Positions 4,063 to 18,544 of a stretch of DNA of 24,339 nt are shown here, in pieces. The DNA is from a virus. The notes under the pieces are model-generated. The model searched no databases. It was not told where the DNA came from and was given only the letters and a program-made list of their open reading frames with translations. Numbering within the stretch: position 1 is the first letter of the stretch; each line of letters starts with the position of its first letter. The stretch lies in IMG/VR virus record IMGVR_UViG_3300048113_000042, positions 1 to 24,339 of that record; one strand, written 5' to 3'. A program made the position numbers and the translations under genes.

Positions 4063-5121
4063 TTAAGGCGCTATCCCGCCCAATACAAAATGACCACCAT
4101 TAAACACACTGGATGAGCCTACAATTGTATCAGCAAGTGTTACATTATTGGGGTCAGAATAATCATATACATATATAGAGGAGTCTTCACTTCTAGCTTT
4201 AGCAAAAACTAACTCCCGCACTGGGTCAACTGCCAAGCTGCGAGAGCTTCCGCCACCAAGATTAACTTCAAAAATAGTGTCTGTAATACTCATAGATGAA
4301 GTATTGCTATAATCTACAACCGAAAAGCTATCTAGACATAAACAAAAAAGTAACTCTTTACTTGGGTCAGTTGCCAATACAGTTGGTTGATTTAAATTTG
4401 TAGAGTCACTAAGGTTACTGATAACCGACAAACTTGCAACATTTGATGTATCTATAACAGCAACCCTATCATTAGCATAGTGACCAGTAAAAACAAGGTC
4501 GTTTGTAGTATCTATTGCTAATCCCGCAGCGGATGCCATATTAGTGCTAGACGTTAAAGTTGTTCTTTCGGACATACTAGCAGGATTAGATATGTTAATA
4601 GATGTTAGCCGCCCCCCCGCTTTCATAAATGCAGTATCTCTAGCAGAGTCTAAAACAATCATATCGCCATTATAAGTAGTAGCTAGACTGCCTGTTATAG
4701 ATAGATTTGTAGGGTCACTATAATCAACAGCATTAAAGTAATTGGGAGTATTGCCAGAAATATAAACAATTTCTGTAGTGGGGTCTGCTTCAACCCCTTT
4801 TGTGAAATCGAATTTATCACTGTCTATGATTGAGTCTGCAATGCTGATATTTGATATGTCGTTAAAATCCACGCAGGTTAGTTCATCAGAAAGTAGATTG
4901 CCAAAAAACCCTAAGTCTCTTGTAGAGTCTACGGAACTTGCATAGCCAATATTCAAGCTGCCGCTAGAAACACTATCCGCAATTGTCATGTTTTCTACAT
5001 CAGCAACATTTACACCCGTTCCATCACCAGCTCCCATTAGTACGCCTTTAGTAAACTGGCCCGAAATCGCGTCATATCCGGCAGCACTCGCTGATAATAG
5101 TTTTTTAGCTACTGTACTCAT
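4063..5121 (-). CDS. seven-bladed beta-propeller, probable receptor-binding virion protein
   Basis: The 352 residues contain repeated ~42-50-residue units of LVIVD/YVTN-like propeller type. Each has a D-P/S/T-x-x-(E/D)-(L/I)-V/A-F/Y core followed by a strand such as VVDYS or VAVID and a loop with NxSxxxS. I count six full blades (about residues 55-335). An N-terminal strand (VENMTIADSV, ~43-52) and a C-terminal strand (GGHFVLGG) would close a seventh in the usual velcro manner. No signal peptide is present. Its ATG overlaps the TAA of the tail fibre gene by one base, so the two are translationally coupled, and a fibre-assembly chaperone follows. A tip or receptor-binding role on the fibre is the natural inference. 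Enzymatic activity cannot be excluded. Confidence 0.7.
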   Translation of the reverse strand: MSTVAKKLLSASAAGYDAISGQFTKGVLMGAGDGTGVNVADVENMTIADSVSSGSLNIGYASSVDSTRDLGFFGNLLSDELTCVDFNDISNISIADSIIDSDKFDFTKGVEADPTTEIVYISGNTPNYFNAVDYSDPTNLSITGSLATTYNGDMIVLDSARDTAFMKAGGRLTSINISNPASMSERTTLTSSTNMASAAGLAIDTTNDLVFTGHYANDRVAVIDTSNVASLSVISNLSDSTNLNQPTVLATDPSKELLFCLCLDSFSVVDYSNTSSMSITDTIFEVNLGGGSSRSLAVDPVRELVFAKARSEDSSIYVYDYSDPNNVTLADTIVGSSSVFNGGHFVLGGIAP

Positions 5122-8027
5122 TATGCCATCGCCTGTCCAGCCGTGAAGCCGTAGTAAGTAGTCCCACCATCAATCGTATAGAATACAAACACATCTACAC
5201 CACCACTGGTTGCTGTCAAGGTAGGCGCTGTGCCTCCCGCCCAGTCAACACTAGCAGGCCAAGTAATTGTGCGAGCTGTGGTGTCCTGAATAATTTTGAG
5301 CGTGAAGGCCGAAGCATTGCCTGTGGCTGCCGGGTTGCTAAAGGTGTAAGTAGTATTGCCTGTGAGGTCATGTACAAAGTTTGTAGCAGTAGCAAGGTTA
5401 ATAGTAGTAGATGTGCCTGCAAGCGTTACAGCGTCTTCAGTGATGCCGCCAGCTATAGTAATGCTTCCGTTTACATCTACGCCTGCGCTAGTAGTTGTTA
5501 GCCTATCAACACCATTATGATTTAACTGACAGCTACCAGCAGTATTAAACCTAGCATAAGTTTGGCCACCCACTCCTGAAACACCATTACCAATATCAAC
5601 ATAGCTAGTGCCGCCAATAAACAGGTTGCCAGTTCCGTAGTCGCCCACATAACTGTTGGAGCCATCATGGAATATTTCTAGGTCTGCTGAAGTGCCAAAG
5701 TTGGCCTTAACATTGTCGTTAAGATTCAAGTCACCAGTAAGAGTTCCACCAGCTTTAGGTAGAGCAGCGTCAGCAGTAGTGCCTTGTGCGGCTGTGGCGT
5801 AGTCAGCGGAGTCAAACGCTTTAACCTGTGCAAGGTTAGTAACCTCTGAGTCCATCAAAGCACCAGCAGCAGTGACGTTAGCTGTGTCCGTTACGTCTGC
5901 ACTGGCTTCAATACCATCTAACTTAGCGCCATCAACAGAAACATCACGACCATCAACAGTTCCAGTCAAAGCAACATTGCCACTCACATCAATACCAGTA
6001 GCGGTTGTTGACATCTTTTGAACGTTGTTATGCTTCAGGTCGCAACTACCAGAAGTATTAAACCTGGCGTATGTCTGACCACCAGCCCCAGAAACACCGT
6101 TACCAATATCGACGTAAGCAGCGCCACCTATAAATAAGTTTCCAGTGCCCGTATCTCTTACATAGCTATTGCTACCGTCATGTAATAGTTCAAGGTCGTT
6201 TCCTGTTCCAAGCTGTATTAGGTCGTTATCCGATACCTTAATATCGCCATTTACTTCAACACCTGAAGACGTCGTTGCTAGTCTATCAACACCATTGTAA
6301 TTTAGCTGACAGCTACCAGCAGTATTGAATCTGGCATAGGTCTGACCACCAGCCCCAGACACGCCATTGCCAATATCAACGTAACTTGCCCCGCCTATGA
6401 AAAGGTTTCCTGTCCCGTCATCGACTACATAACTATTGCTACCGTCATGGTATATCTCTAAATCAGTGCCAACACCGAACGTAGCTTTATCATTGTCGCC
6501 TAATGTAAGGCCGTTTGCTGTGACTTCTCCGCTAACGTCTATGCCCGTGGATGTTGTTGACATCTTCTGAACGTTGTTGTGTTTTAGATCGCAACTACCC
6601 GAAGTGTTAAATCTTGCATAGGTCTGACCACCTGCGCCTGATACACCATTGCCAATATCTACGTAAGCAGCGCCACCTATAAATAAGTTGCCAGTTCCAG
6701 AATCAACTACATAACTATTAAGGGCGTCATGGTAAATTTGGAAATCTAAACTTTGACCAAACAATGCCTTGTCATTGTCACCAAAAGCTACGTTGTTGCC
6801 GCTAGTTTGGTTTCCAAGTGCCAGTGTTTCTGCCAGAGTTTCGCCACCACCGCTACCACCAGTGCTTGCAATTGTTCCGTCAGCAGCAATAGTAATGTTA
6901 GCGCCTGCGGTTAAGGAGGCCACGACGTTGTCAGTATCAGTAACGTCAGCTAGAGCCTCAATGCCATCCAGCTTAACCCCATCAGAGGAAACGTTGCGAC
7001 CATTGACAGTACCGTTTACCAATACACCAGAGTTTGTAGTCTCCAGCCTATCAACATTGTTGTAGTTTAACTGACAGCTTCCAGATGTATTAAATCTTGC
7101 ATAGGTCTGCCCACCAGCGCCAATAACTCCGTTACCGATGTCAACATAACTTGCGCCACCTATGAATAGGTTACCTGTGCCGTCATCAACTACGTAGCTG
7201 TTCGCTCCATCGTGATATATTTCGAGATCAGTGTTAGCACCAAAAGTAGCTTTATCGTTATCAGCAAATGCAATGTCGGTTCCACCAGTGGCGTTGCCAA
7301 GAACAAGTGTCTGAGCAAGGGTCTCACCACCACCACCAGTGCTGGAGATTGTTCCGTCTCCCGCGATAGTAATGTTAGTACCAGCAGTCAAAGATGCTAC
7401 AACGTTAGTGGTGTCTGTAACATCTGCACCTGATTCAATACCGTCCAGCTTAGTACCGTCTACCGAAACATCACGACCATCAAAAGTGCTAGTGGTAGTT
7501 ACAGGGCCAGTCAGAGCGCCACCAGTTAATGGCAGGAAATCACCACCACCGCCACTTGGTGTGTCTGCAATAACATTACCATCCCCATCAAACCCTAAGA
7601 ATTTGTTAGCTCTGTTGGCCGCTAAAGGCAGATCAAGGGTTGCGCTATCCTCTTCATCTTGCAGACCAATAGACCGACTTATATCAGTTTGCAGTTGGTT
7701 CATTGCGATGTAAGTTTTATCGAAGTCAGCATTTACATCGGATGCAAGGAAGTCACCAGAGTTTTGATAGTTCGTTGTCCTGGTAATAGGCATCGCCAAT
7801 AAGAGAGCAATCTTGTCGCCGCCAGACGCAGGAGAAATAAGAAGCACGTTTCCGCCACCGTCAGATCCTACTCCGGTAACAAGGTAGTCGCTACCAATAG
7901 AAAGCTCTACCCCATTCTGGAGAACCTTTATGTCGCTGTTAGACAGTATCTCGAACGTGTAGGCAAAAGTAGTCTGCCCAACCGATGCAATGTAGTCGTT
8001 TCTAGTTACTCCACCAGTTACAGGCAT
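5121..8027 (-). CDS. tail fibre protein with T7-type N-terminal domain and five internal repeats
   Basis: A 968-residue tail fibre. Residues 1-150 resemble the T7 gp17 N-terminal tail-attachment domain (FAYTFEILSNSDIKVLQNGV, GDKIALLLAMPITRTT, DFDKTYIAMNQLQTDI). The body holds five ~85-residue repeats at about 255-339, 416-500, 510-594, 599-683 and 770-854. Each contains NSYV..(G)TGNLFIGG, YVDIGNGV.G.GGQTYARFNT and an SC(Q/D)L segment. Three copies of VDG-x-KLDGIE (about 188-211, 346-370, 696-720) lie between them. The C-terminal 100 residues (TNFVHDLTGNTTYTFSNP, TITWPASVDWAGGTAPTL) form a common fibre-end module. The glycine/asparagine-rich repeats predict a trimeric beta-structured shaft. 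It has a strong GAGGA ribosome binding site and a 71-base promoter-like gap upstream. Confidence 0.88.
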   Translation of the reverse strand: MPVTGGVTRNDYIASVGQTTFAYTFEILSNSDIKVLQNGVELSIGSDYLVTGVGSDGGGNVLLISPASGGDKIALLLAMPITRTTNYQNSGDFLASDVNADFDKTYIAMNQLQTDISRSIGLQDEEDSATLDLPLAANRANKFLGFDGDGNVIADTPSGGGGDFLPLTGGALTGPVTTTSTFDGRDVSVDGTKLDGIESGADVTDTTNVVASLTAGTNITIAGDGTISSTGGGGETLAQTLVLGNATGGTDIAFADNDKATFGANTDLEIYHDGANSYVVDDGTGNLFIGGASYVDIGNGVIGAGGQTYARFNTSGSCQLNYNNVDRLETTNSGVLVNGTVNGRNVSSDGVKLDGIEALADVTDTDNVVASLTAGANITIAADGTIASTGGSGGGETLAETLALGNQTSGNNVAFGDNDKALFGQSLDFQIYHDALNSYVVDSGTGNLFIGGAAYVDIGNGVSGAGGQTYARFNTSGSCDLKHNNVQKMSTTSTGIDVSGEVTANGLTLGDNDKATFGVGTDLEIYHDGSNSYVVDDGTGNLFIGGASYVDIGNGVSGAGGQTYARFNTAGSCQLNYNGVDRLATTSSGVEVNGDIKVSDNDLIQLGTGNDLELLHDGSNSYVRDTGTGNLFIGGAAYVDIGNGVSGAGGQTYARFNTSGSCDLKHNNVQKMSTTATGIDVSGNVALTGTVDGRDVSVDGAKLDGIEASADVTDTANVTAAGALMDSEVTNLAQVKAFDSADYATAAQGTTADAALPKAGGTLTGDLNLNDNVKANFGTSADLEIFHDGSNSYVGDYGTGNLFIGGTSYVDIGNGVSGVGGQTYARFNTAGSCQLNHNGVDRLTTTSAGVDVNGSITIAGGITEDAVTLAGTSTTINLATATNFVHDLTGNTTYTFSNPAATGNASAFTLKIIQDTTARTITWPASVDWAGGTAPTLTATSGGVDVFVFYTIDGGTTYYGFTAGQAMA
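5466..5720 (-). repeat. fibre repeat 5 (class A)
   Basis: Residues ~770-854 of the tail fibre, with TSYVD, SCQLNHNGVDRL and an ending in VNG. It is separated from repeat 4 by a long linker containing a VDG-x-KLDGIE unit and an alanine-rich segment (QGTTADAALPKAGGTLTGDL). Confidence 0.85.
5979..6233 (-). repeat. fibre repeat 4 (class B)
   Basis: Residues ~599-683 of the tail fibre, with AAYVD, SCDLKHNNVQKMSTT and IDVSG. It is almost identical to repeat 2 in its second half at protein level. Confidence 0.85.
6246..6500 (-). repeat. fibre repeat 3 (class A)
   Basis: Residues ~510-594 of the tail fibre, with ASYVD, SCQLNYNGVDRL and an ending in VNG. It is closely similar to repeat 1 in protein but differs at many third codon positions. 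Confidence 0.85.
6528..6782 (-). repeat. fibre repeat 2 (class B)
   Basis: Residues ~416-500 of the tail fibre. The class B signature is AAYVD with SCDLKHNNVQKMSTT and an ending in IDVSG. Confidence 0.85.
7011..7265 (-). repeat. fibre repeat 1 (class A)
   Basis: Residues ~255-339 of the tail fibre. The class A signature is ASYVD with SCQLNYNNVDRL and an ending in VNG. It is the only copy with GVIGAGG instead of GVSG. Confidence 0.85.
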
Positions 8028-14501: not shown

Positions 14502-17080
14502 GAAGATTCGACCTCATACTCGATAGCCTGTAAATGGAAAGGCGTAGGATCTGGTACTGTGATCTCAGGAGCAACATCAACGCCCCACCCATTACCACCA
14601 TTGTTATCTTCTATAATACCAGTTTTTGGGGTAAAGGATGTGTTCAGTGGCGTATTAGGAGCTGCACCAAACTGCCTAATTGCTACAGGATTGCCGTCAA
14701 CGTAAACTCCAGCAGTATCATGAACCCTCAAGTTCATTCGGCATATCTTCTTTTCGCGCATACTATTTTGGCCAAGGCGAGTACCAGGGCTAGTGTTGAT
14801 AGGCATAGTCTTAACTGTAACAGGGAAGTTAAGTCCAATCTCAATCTCTCTCGATGCAAAGCCATTAAGCTCTGCTGCGGTGATTGTAATAGAAGACGAA
14901 GCGCCATTGTTCAAAGAAACAACTCTACTGGGCAAAACATCGCCATCTGCCACAACGCTCACTTCATAACCATTAAGCCTACTGCCAACAGGTATAATAA
15001 CATCAGACCCCATATTAACCACTGTAGTTTTTAAAGCAGACTCTGTTAAATAGTCAAAACTCCATCGCTCAATGTCATAGTAATCAGCGATGCCTATTTG
15101 GCGATACACGATCATGTACATTTCGTCTCCAACAGCAGAGCACGACTTAATAGTATTGACTGGTGAAGGTGTCCAGCGCGTGAAGCCATTTATATCTTGC
15201 GCTCTCATGGTGTTTAGAACTGCACCAGTGCCATCATGATTTATCAAGAAAACCCAGTTAGCATCTTCTGTTGTGCTGCCAGACAACAAAGCCATATCGA
15301 CCGGTTGGTTAATTAGCTGCGAAGACAAAACAGAAATGTCATTAGATGTATAGGCATCTTCATTAAAGCTGAATACATACTGGCGTAAAGTATTACCATT
15401 TTTGTCTACAAACAGTGTGGCACCGTCAACAGCTTTTGACTCAAGATTAATTGAGCCATGCTGAGTCTGAGCAACAACCGAAATATCTGACGGAGTTTGA
15501 CCTTTAACTACAAACTCACTGCCTGAGCAAAACAACTGCAAGCCTCGATCTGGATTAATATCAACAATGTTAGTTAATCCGCGAGAGTCAATTGTTATAA
15601 ATATGCCTTCATCATCTTCACCCTTCTCGCTAAAGAAGTCAAAATAGTTGCCTGACCTAGAAGCAAACAAGCTCTGTGGCTTAGACTTCGTGCCACCCAA
15701 CCACAAGCGACCTTCAAAGAACACGCCTAGCTTTGGGTACCCCCTAGTTGCAGACCACACATCTTCAGACCGAGATTGGCCCTGCTGTGTTAAGGCAAAC
15801 GATATTGTGTCATTTGCACTTCCGCTAGTAGGGAATCCAGCAAACAGTTCATACTCACCCGCCGACTCTCCAGCCATGGTGATCGTGTACGTCTTAGTGT
15901 GGGTTCTTGCTACACTTATGCCCGAAAATCCAAACACAGGCATATCCTGCAAATTCTTCTGCAAATGGTAAGCAGTAGAAGATTGCTCATCAGCAGTTCC
16001 ATCTCCAGAATAAGTAATGTCTTTACTTAAAACTCCATCAACATCAATTTGATATTGTTGCCCATAAGTAAATCCAGAGAATGAACAGACTTGTATTGCA
16101 GGCGTGGAAGGAGGACTGTCAGAATCGTTGTAATCATACTGTGGCACATTTGCAAAGGGAATGTTGTCTAGCACAAAAGCGTCAGATTCATCTAGTCCAC
16201 TAAATACAATACGTATCGGAGGATAATCCTCATGGAACATAAGCATTACATTTTCGGTCTGAGCATCCCTTACGCTATCTACTGTTGCCTCTGAATAAGG
16301 TACAATCACATCAGCTACATAAACTGTATCTGTGCTGCCAGCGTGAGGCGTTCTATAAAACCTAAGATTGCCATTGGTTAGTACACCAAGATAACTTTGA
16401 TCGAACCCATAATGCCAGTCAAATGTTTTAGCTGTGCCAATTCCAAGCGATTCATTTTTAAACCCAAATTCCCCAATCTTTATTTGAGCGCTGGCAGAAG
16501 ATGCCATTACCGTTACTAGCCTCCAGTAACGCTTGCTTAAGTTATCTATTTTAAATCTAATGTTCTTAGGACTCAAATTGTCCACGCGCATAAATACGCC
16601 ACCAGGCCCTGGCTTAACGGAAGTCCAATCAACGCCATTATCTGAATATTGGATATTCATAGAAGCCGCAACTACAGCACCATCGGGAACCGCAGGATTA
16701 GGAATAACACTGACATTCCTAAGATCAATAAAGTAGTTTACTGTTGGAGCGCCAAGGTCATATTCAGCAATGACAACTGTGTTTTGAGATCCGATATTAG
16801 CCGTAATACCGAATGTTTCATCATCTCCGTCATTGATATTAGCAGCAACACCGCCAAAGGGCATAGTTGGCGTTACAGCAGTCTGACGTACTAGCGCCCT
16901 AACAACTCCGTCAATAAACTCAGTTCCAGGTCTACGCTTAACACCACCCTGTGGAACGATAACCACGTTCTCGGCTGCTTGTGCGCCCTTGTAGTATTGC
17001 TCCAGATCGGTGCGGCCTAGTAGTAATGGTGAAAGCTCTCCACTAGCAAAGCTGGACTGCTTGTATTGCGACTTAGGCAT
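14498..17080 (-). CDS. tail tubular protein B / nozzle protein (T7 gp12-like) with an inserted F5/8C-like domain
   Basis: The 860-residue product begins with the hallmark of the podovirus nozzle family: FASGELSPLLLGRTDLEQYY, then AENVVIVPQGGVKRRPGTEF. After about residue 220 the family pattern resumes (FDQSYLGVLTNGNLRFYR), and later DVWSATRGYPKLGVFFEGRLWLGG and SLFASRSGNYFDFF appear, both typical. Between residues ~64 and 218 there is an extra segment resembling an F5/8 type C (discoidin, galactose-binding-like) domain: NINDGDDET, EYDLG, IQYSDNGVDWTSV, RYWRLV and IGEFGF in the right order. The protein forms the distal tail tube; the insert could bind carbohydrate on the host surface. It follows the gp11-like gene with a one-base overlap. 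Confidence 0.88.
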   Translation of the reverse strand: MPKSQYKQSSFASGELSPLLLGRTDLEQYYKGAQAAENVVIVPQGGVKRRPGTEFIDGVVRALVRQTAVTPTMPFGGVAANINDGDDETFGITANIGSQNTVVIAEYDLGAPTVNYFIDLRNVSVIPNPAVPDGAVVAASMNIQYSDNGVDWTSVKPGPGGVFMRVDNLSPKNIRFKIDNLSKRYWRLVTVMASSASAQIKIGEFGFKNESLGIGTAKTFDWHYGFDQSYLGVLTNGNLRFYRTPHAGSTDTVYVADVIVPYSEATVDSVRDAQTENVMLMFHEDYPPIRIVFSGLDESDAFVLDNIPFANVPQYDYNDSDSPPSTPAIQVCSFSGFTYGQQYQIDVDGVLSKDITYSGDGTADEQSSTAYHLQKNLQDMPVFGFSGISVARTHTKTYTITMAGESAGEYELFAGFPTSGSANDTISFALTQQGQSRSEDVWSATRGYPKLGVFFEGRLWLGGTKSKPQSLFASRSGNYFDFFSEKGEDDEGIFITIDSRGLTNIVDINPDRGLQLFCSGSEFVVKGQTPSDISVVAQTQHGSINLESKAVDGATLFVDKNGNTLRQYVFSFNEDAYTSNDISVLSSQLINQPVDMALLSGSTTEDANWVFLINHDGTGAVLNTMRAQDINGFTRWTPSPVNTIKSCSAVGDEMYMIVYRQIGIADYYDIERWSFDYLTESALKTTVVNMGSDVIIPVGSRLNGYEVSVVADGDVLPSRVVSLNNGASSSITITAAELNGFASREIEIGLNFPVTVKTMPINTSPGTRLGQNSMREKKICRMNLRVHDTAGVYVDGNPVAIRQFGAAPNTPLNTSFTPKTGIIEDNNGGNGWGVDVAPEITVPDPTPFHLQAIEYEVESS

Positions 17081-17698: not shown

Positions 17699-18544
17699 TT
17701 AAGCAGTCTGAGTGTACTGAACTTTAACAATACCATCAGTGTCGCGGGCAACAGCGCCAGCCTTCAGCATACCGTTACACAACCAAGAGGTACGATCAGC
17801 GATCCAGTCAATGCTAGTCTTCATGTCGATGCCGATAGCTAGGCCAACAGAAGGACGAGCAAAGAAGTAGGAATCAACTACGTCAGCAGCAACAGTCAAG
17901 CCACCTTCAACACGATCTTCAAGAATAATGAACTTGAAGCCAGCCAAAGTGTCGATGTCACCGTTCACCAGAGCCTTAACATTCTGGTAATCAGCAGAAG
18001 TAGCCTTCTCATCATTGAGCATACCGCCAAGACCCAGAGCGTTCACAGCAGCAAACAGCTCAGAGTTGGGTACACCTTTCTGACGGAGAGATACCTGAGC
18101 TTCGATTACTTTGGCCAGGTTCAGGTTACTAGCAGTTCCACCTACGTCAGTGCCAACAGTAGCAGCATAAGCGCCAGCGTTGTCCATAGAGTCGATAACG
18201 AGCTGATCACAGCGACGACCAAGAGCATTTGCGATAGTGCTTGCCAGTTCCTGCTTTTCGTCGAAGTTTACGTCTTGAGCATCAAAGATGTCGGTGTACT
18301 CAGGAGCGTTCCAGTTGGCCAGAGTTGCAGTCTTGAACTCATGGTTTACGTTCATTGGCGCTACTTCAGCAGATGTGGCCTTCTGATTAGCAAGACCTTT
18401 GCCCATCTTACGGAACTTGTAAGTGTCACCAACAACATTGTTACGAAGTGTAACAGCAGACTTCAGCAGACCAGTACCCTGATATGCGTGCTTTACCATG
18501 CTGTCAAACTCTGTGACAGCTACGGATGATAATACGTTACTCAT
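17699..18544 (-). CDS. major capsid protein
   Basis: A 281-residue protein placed exactly after the scaffold and before the tail tube genes, the fixed podovirus position of the coat protein. It has the look of an HK97-fold coat protein: N-terminal helix (AVTEFDSMVKHAYQG), then GDTYKFRKMGKG, a segment PEYTDIFDAQDVNFDEKQELASTIANALGRRCDQLVI (a typical spine-helix region), and a C-terminal SIDWIADRTSWLCNGML. It is shorter than T7 gp10A (about 345 residues). It has its own promoter, a structured leader, a strong GAGGAA ribosome binding site and its own terminator. This matches the need for several hundred copies per virion. Confidence 0.88.
   Translation of the reverse strand: MSNVLSSVAVTEFDSMVKHAYQGTGLLKSAVTLRNNVVGDTYKFRKMGKGLANQKATSAEVAPMNVNHEFKTATLANWNAPEYTDIFDAQDVNFDEKQELASTIANALGRRCDQLVIDSMDNAGAYAATVGTDVGGTASNLNLAKVIEAQVSLRQKGVPNSELFAAVNALGLGGMLNDEKATSADYQNVKALVNGDIDTLAGFKFIILEDRVEGGLTVAADVVDSYFFARPSVGLAIGIDMKTSIDWIADRTSWLCNGMLKAGAVARDTDGIVKVQYTQTA

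Follow-up and report, generated by a model that had tools for sequence, protein, structure and literature searches.

Does the tail nozzle gene of this virus encode a domain that related nozzles do without, and, if so, where on the tail would that domain sit and what could it do? The question arises from a stretch of DNA of 24,339 nucleotides (IMG/VR record IMGVR_UViG_3300048113_000042, positions 1 to 24,339; here, the window), in which an original prediction, made by reading the sequence, placed a discoidin-like domain inside the nozzle protein. We followed this up by homology searches, structure prediction, and comparison with related nozzles. The features concerned are listed in Table 1.

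Table 1. Location of the tail-related features of the window and the evidence for each
Feature	Positions	Strand	Evidence
Beta-propeller-like protein, 352 aa	4063-5121	(-)	PF10282, 27.1 bits (cutoff, 21.7)
Separate T7-like tail fiber, 968 aa, with N-terminal anchor and repeats	5121-8027	(-)	phrog_1640, phrog_24456, and phrog_9017 tail (fiber) families
Cupin-like protein, 125 aa	14124-14501	(-)	phrog_12032 "short tail fiber protein"
Predicted tail nozzle protein, T7 gp12/Carin-1 nozzle type, 860 aa	14498-17080	(-)	phrog_376, PDB 8ck1, Foldseek of full model
Probable nozzle-tip region, nozzle aa 321-435	15776-16120	(-)	Inside propeller; helix 363-378 in model
Predicted beta-propeller start after insert, nozzle aa 219-320	16121-16426	(-)	Alignment with 8ck1 restarts (query 222 = residue 77)
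Insert, predicted F5/8-type-C/CBM32-like jelly-roll domain, nozzle aa 57-218	16427-16912	(-)	Absence in outgroups, Pfam, PDB profile, AF2, Foldseek
N-terminal conserved segment, nozzle aa 1-56 (platform strands by T7 gp12 analogy)	16913-17080	(-)	Aligns to 8ck1 8-61
Tail adaptor, T7 gp11-like, 185 aa	17080-17637	(-)	phrog_394 tail protein, E = 4.6e-37
MCP	17699-18544		

The nozzle gene and its neighbors

The 860-aa open reading frame (ORF) matches the tail protein family phrog_376 (E = 1.9e-97), the Carin-1 "Tail Nozzle" (PDB 8ck1; E = 1.8e-24), and orf18 of 9efk (E = 4.3e-15), and is thus homologous both to solved nozzles of the T7 gp12 type and to nozzle families. A Foldseek search with an AlphaFold model of the full-length protein, itself a weak model (pLDDT 60.5, pTM 0.56), returned the nozzles of Carin-1, T7, LME-1, Kp9, and P-SCSP1u. 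The gene order is T7-like: the MCP and adaptor genes are followed by the nozzle gene, which lies after the adaptor as it does for T7 gp12-type nozzles, and then by genes for internal virion proteins. Judged by its sequence, the ORF is the nozzle of a marine short-tailed phage of the T7 gp12/Carin-1 type. Its N-terminal segment, propeller, and C-terminal platform region are homologous to those of the solved nozzles (Carin-1, 8ck1; T7, 6r21/7boy; LME-1, 9efk; P-SCSP1u, 8i4m), and the N-terminal segment shows at least 43% identity to every full-length nozzle compared. Residues 321 to 435 are probably the counterpart of the T7 nozzle tip. In five related loci (L115, L124, L129, L130, and L137), the nozzles have about 63 additional residues in the propeller region (325 versus about 262 aa).

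The window also encodes a fiber-assembly chaperone and, besides the internal virion proteins, a separate T7-like tail fiber, so that the insert described below comes on top of the usual receptor-binding protein. Of ten related contigs tested, which include several fragments, seven carry the fiber. Right after the fiber gene lies the gene for the 352-aa propeller-like protein, which is possibly an extra tail or adhesin protein. The gene for the cupin-like protein overlaps the nozzle stop codon; in certain other phages, the corresponding place is taken by a gene with an acetyltransferase annotation.

A segment absent from most other nozzles

A segment of about 160 residues separates the N-terminal RPGTEF segment from the FDQSYLGVLT region. 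The original prediction put it at positions 16427 to 16891 (-), which is exactly residues 64 to 218 of the ORF (17080-14498), and the five motifs that it quoted are all present and in order: NDGDDET (83 to 89), EYDLG (106 to 110), YSDNGVDWT (145 to 153), RYWRLV (184 to 189), and IGEFGF (202 to 207). The insertion itself stands, whereas its start moves a little upstream, to about residues 57 to 60, when insert-free nozzles are used as the reference. In Carin-1, the best-aligning solved nozzle and the one compared at residue level at this site, residues 61 and 77 align with our residues 55 and 222, leaving 15 residues between them where the window has a domain of roughly 160.

The counterpart of residues 57 to 219 is 163 aa long here, 149 to 173 aa long in 68 distinct members of the clade, and 9 to 21 aa long in seven outgroup phage nozzles. 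These seven (MEP301, YeP5, ZCVPP1, HTVC203P, Piluca, 22O28-1, and Skadi-8) belong to a set of eight annotated phage nozzles, among which only that of Dunaliella viridis virus SI2 has a long segment (165 residues). Most gp12-like nozzles had been expected to lack the insert, and it is indeed missing at this site from the seven outgroups and from Carin-1. The outgroup nozzle of Piluca is annotated as a "carbohydrate-binding protein" and is likewise without the insert at this site.

Predicted fold of the insert

The insert has a sequence pattern in common with F5/8 type C (PF00754) and CBM32 domains (NDGxxxT..YDLG..S.DG.xW..RYWRL..GEF). The window copy scores 21.7 bits with PF00754 (E = 2.3e-4), which is below the gathering cutoff of 28.2 bits. 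When 20 members were searched at E ≤ 0.1, PF00754 was matched in 17 (best E = 1.8e-5) and PF22633 in 9; among 68 members at E ≤ 0.01, the two families were matched in 16 and 17, respectively. The nozzle of one relative, L091, exceeds the PF00754 gathering cutoff, with 42.6 bits over two copies. A profile of the 20 members, compared with the PDB, found F5/8C domains of Bacteroides chitobiase first (2kd7, E = 7.4e-5), followed by CBM32s, sialidase, and galactose oxidase, and a profile of the 68 members again matched the chitobiase domains and CBM32s.

Modeled alone with AlphaFold (AF2), the insert consists mostly of strands (pLDDT 83.4, pTM 0.80). In Foldseek, this model matched CBM32s best among PDB entries (E ~1e-5, probability 1.00), though the superpositions were modest, at TM-scores of 0.5 to 0.6 with a large rmsd; the best viral match was a 741-aa phage protein (TMq 0.72, 27% identity). 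Pfam, the PDB profile searches, and the AF2 model with Foldseek thus all back the jelly roll of galactose-binding type that had been proposed, and they support the view that the insert is an F5/8-type-C/CBM32 beta-sandwich, as a prediction rather than a solved structure. It differs from the familiar members of this fold in that its carrier is a phage nozzle, its window copy falls under the Pfam cutoff, and no conserved ligand pocket is recognizable in it.

In galactose oxidase, a secreted enzyme that was also among the Foldseek matches of the full nozzle model, a galactose-binding domain precedes a propeller of seven blades. As far as can be judged, this enzyme and the nozzle came to the shared architecture by convergence.

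Distribution among relatives

The IMG/VR search for relatives of the nozzle gave 452 encoding stretches, and the best 80 of these were taken. The clade was gathered partly with patterns from insert-bearing sequences, while the A1 search used two patterns outside the insert; among the loci so collected, the long segment is present in 68 of 68 non-redundant nozzles (<97% identity). A search of the collected loci with an insert profile gave 147 matches in nozzle ORFs, overlapping loci being counted repeatedly, and the only nozzles without the insert were the seven outgroups and one fragment of 239 aa. Because the insert is present in every clade relative examined, it is an old insertion rather than a sporadic one, and it is fixed in a large, mostly marine clade. 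Against cultured phages, tblastn with the insert segment alone found nothing at E ≤ 1; SI2 was reached only by the whole-protein search.

The L091 nozzle (L091:1542-4367) has two F5/8C copies that are 35% identical to each other. One occupies the same site as in the window, and the other (aa 649 to 783) sits just after the propeller, between it and the fiber-dock region. When three sequences were searched with the insert profile, a fiber-like, non-nozzle phage protein (L098, ORF at 2832 [+], aa 225 to 320) gave a weak match (E = 4e-6). In addition, a contig from a MAG labeled Piscirickettsiaceae bacterium (L157) encodes an insert-bearing nozzle with 46% identity, and this label is a weak hint of a gammaproteobacterial host.

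Divergence of the insert

The insert is the most divergent region of the nozzle. In a comparison of 2145 pairs, mean insert identity at a core identity of 70 to 80% was 36%, and that of the C-terminal region was 71%. Among six close relatives, dN/dS is 0.40 for the insert, compared with 0.06 for the N terminus, 0.14 for the first blade, 0.24 for the tip region, 0.06 for the propeller, and 0.11 for the C region; in the closest four relatives, the insert value is 0.72. Across these two larger groups, the other nozzle regions lie between 0.06 and 0.28 (tip region, 0.24 to 0.28). In the pair L003/L004, the insert has a value of 0.99, as does the tip region, with few changes. In the pair L010/L011, the first blade (0.64) is above the insert (0.44), so values from small pairs are noisy. 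Overall, the insert ranges from 0.40 to 0.99 versus 0.06 to 0.28 for most of the nozzle, and within it the loops (0.47 and 0.67) exceed the strands (0.35).

The near-invariant residues of the insert (N83, D84, T89, A105, Y107, F117, W152, R175, and R187) coincide with positions conserved across the fold rather than with loop pockets. A conserved sugar pocket was sought in the member alignment and none was recognizable: the loops are hypervariable, with no invariant loop residue on the predicted ligand side. An aromatic residue is found in the loops at insert positions 68 to 77 and 108 to 111 in only 24% of members and in the loop at 133 to 137 in 60%. The pattern fits a fold that has been kept under a surface that may be either diversifying or relaxed, dN/dS being compatible with both. 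As for allele swapping between very close relatives, no pair combines a core identity above 90% with an insert identity below 66%, and rapid divergence, not recent replacement, therefore explains the data. An allele feature common to L003 and L008 hints at some mosaicism.

The tip region is also fast-evolving, with an identity that is poorly correlated with that of the core (Spearman 0.24). It is likely a second host-facing region.

Predicted position in the tail

The T7 gp12 chain begins with ~45 residues that supply three strands to the platform and then enters the propeller, whose blade 3 makes a separate excursion that forms the nozzle tip; on the outside, the fiber dock connects the end of the propeller with the platform again (PMC6702177). 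The T7 fiber docks are jelly rolls in the adaptor and the nozzle, that of the nozzle lying at the propeller-platform link (PMC6702177). The insert had originally been assigned to the distal tube, but this topology puts it elsewhere. Because the platform strands come first and the tip belongs to blade 3, the insert would lie at the platform-propeller junction, level with the fiber dock; that is, it would occupy the first propeller-platform link, beside the dock and not at the distal tip. By the same analogy, the second L091 copy would occupy the other link. Given the poor full-length model, we infer, rather than observe, the exposure and placement of the insert.

Possible roles

We favor, with a probability of roughly 55%, the reading that the insert is an auxiliary host-surface adhesin mounted on the side of the nozzle, where it would probably give the phage an additional hold on its host. 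The nozzle being hexameric, six copies would surround the tail exterior next to the fiber docks. Their variable loops might bind a component of the host surface (polysaccharide, LPS, or a surface protein; a glycan is our candidate) with modest affinity, and together they could help to keep the tail on the envelope or to orient it once the separate fiber has engaged. Three lines of evidence speak for this reading: (i) the insert is found at the same site throughout the clade and is absent in the outgroups, (ii) the fold evidence points to a family that includes CBM32s, and (iii) dN/dS is high, with loops above strands. The recurrence of the domain at a second site in L091, and weakly in the L098 protein, points the same way. 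The lack of conserved pocket residues and the modest CBM32 TM-scores speak against it.

A somewhat unlikely alternative is that the insert is a structural or docking module that holds the fiber, the cupin-like protein, or the 352-aa propeller protein, in which case its ligand would be a protein and not a glycan. The T7 nozzle does have a jelly-roll dock at a propeller-platform link, the second L091 copy would lie at the other such link, and fixation in the whole clade is as expected of an assembly part. However, a docking module should have a conserved surface, yet the insert diverges more than any other part of the nozzle, and homologous nozzles function without it.

Less probable still is a tolerated decoration without a specific ligand, which would stabilize or shield the nozzle and drift under relaxed constraint. 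The high omega values also fit such a decoration, dN/dS shows no clear excess over 1, and the absence of a pocket signature agrees with it; on the other hand, the fold-core residues are near-invariant, the length is held at 149 to 173 aa across large divergence, and the domain has been lost in no member examined and is present twice in L091. That the segment is instead core to all gp12-like proteins, or has some other fold, is very improbable: TM-scores to CBM32s are only about 0.5 and most single members fall under Pfam cutoffs, but alignment with the insert-free outgroup homologues rules out a universal core, the L091 score is above the PF00754 threshold, and profile and Foldseek agree independently.

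The adhesin reading can be extended, speculatively and with considerable doubt: throughout this widespread clade, six quickly changing lectin-like domains would encircle the nozzle beside the fiber docks, act as a second determinant of host range, sense surface contact, and help to trigger channel opening via the platform-propeller hinge.

Precedents and implications

In siphophages, Dit proteins may contain inserted CBMs that attach to host cells, and such modules can also occur in Tal and MTP (PMC7291167). These "evolved Dit" and CBM-decorated proteins resemble the present case in that a binding module sits inside a conserved tail structural protein, beyond the main receptor-binding protein. 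An evolved Dit has its CBM in the Dit galectin domain; here the carrier is the hexameric nozzle of a short-tailed phage, the predicted fold is F5/8C and not that of a BppA-type CBM, and binding is putative, so that the likeness is one of principle only.

There are earlier cases of nozzles acting in adsorption. TTPA and the nozzle TTPB of phage OWB bind the receptor Vp0980 (PMC7241545), and, according to one report, adsorption and host range change with a point substitution in TTPB of vB_Ab4_Hep4, whose receptor is capsule (PMC10904470); the passages covered note no inserted lectin-like domain in either phage. In the mostly non-subscription literature covered, we found no description of an F5/8C or lectin domain inserted in a podovirus nozzle. 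The parts and the principle are already known.

If the adhesin reading is true, the principle of the CBM-decorated tail, described for siphophages of Gram-positive hosts, would extend to the nozzle of widespread, mainly marine short-tailed phages. A fast-evolving site apart from the fiber may then shape host range, and it would be overlooked when fibers alone are examined.
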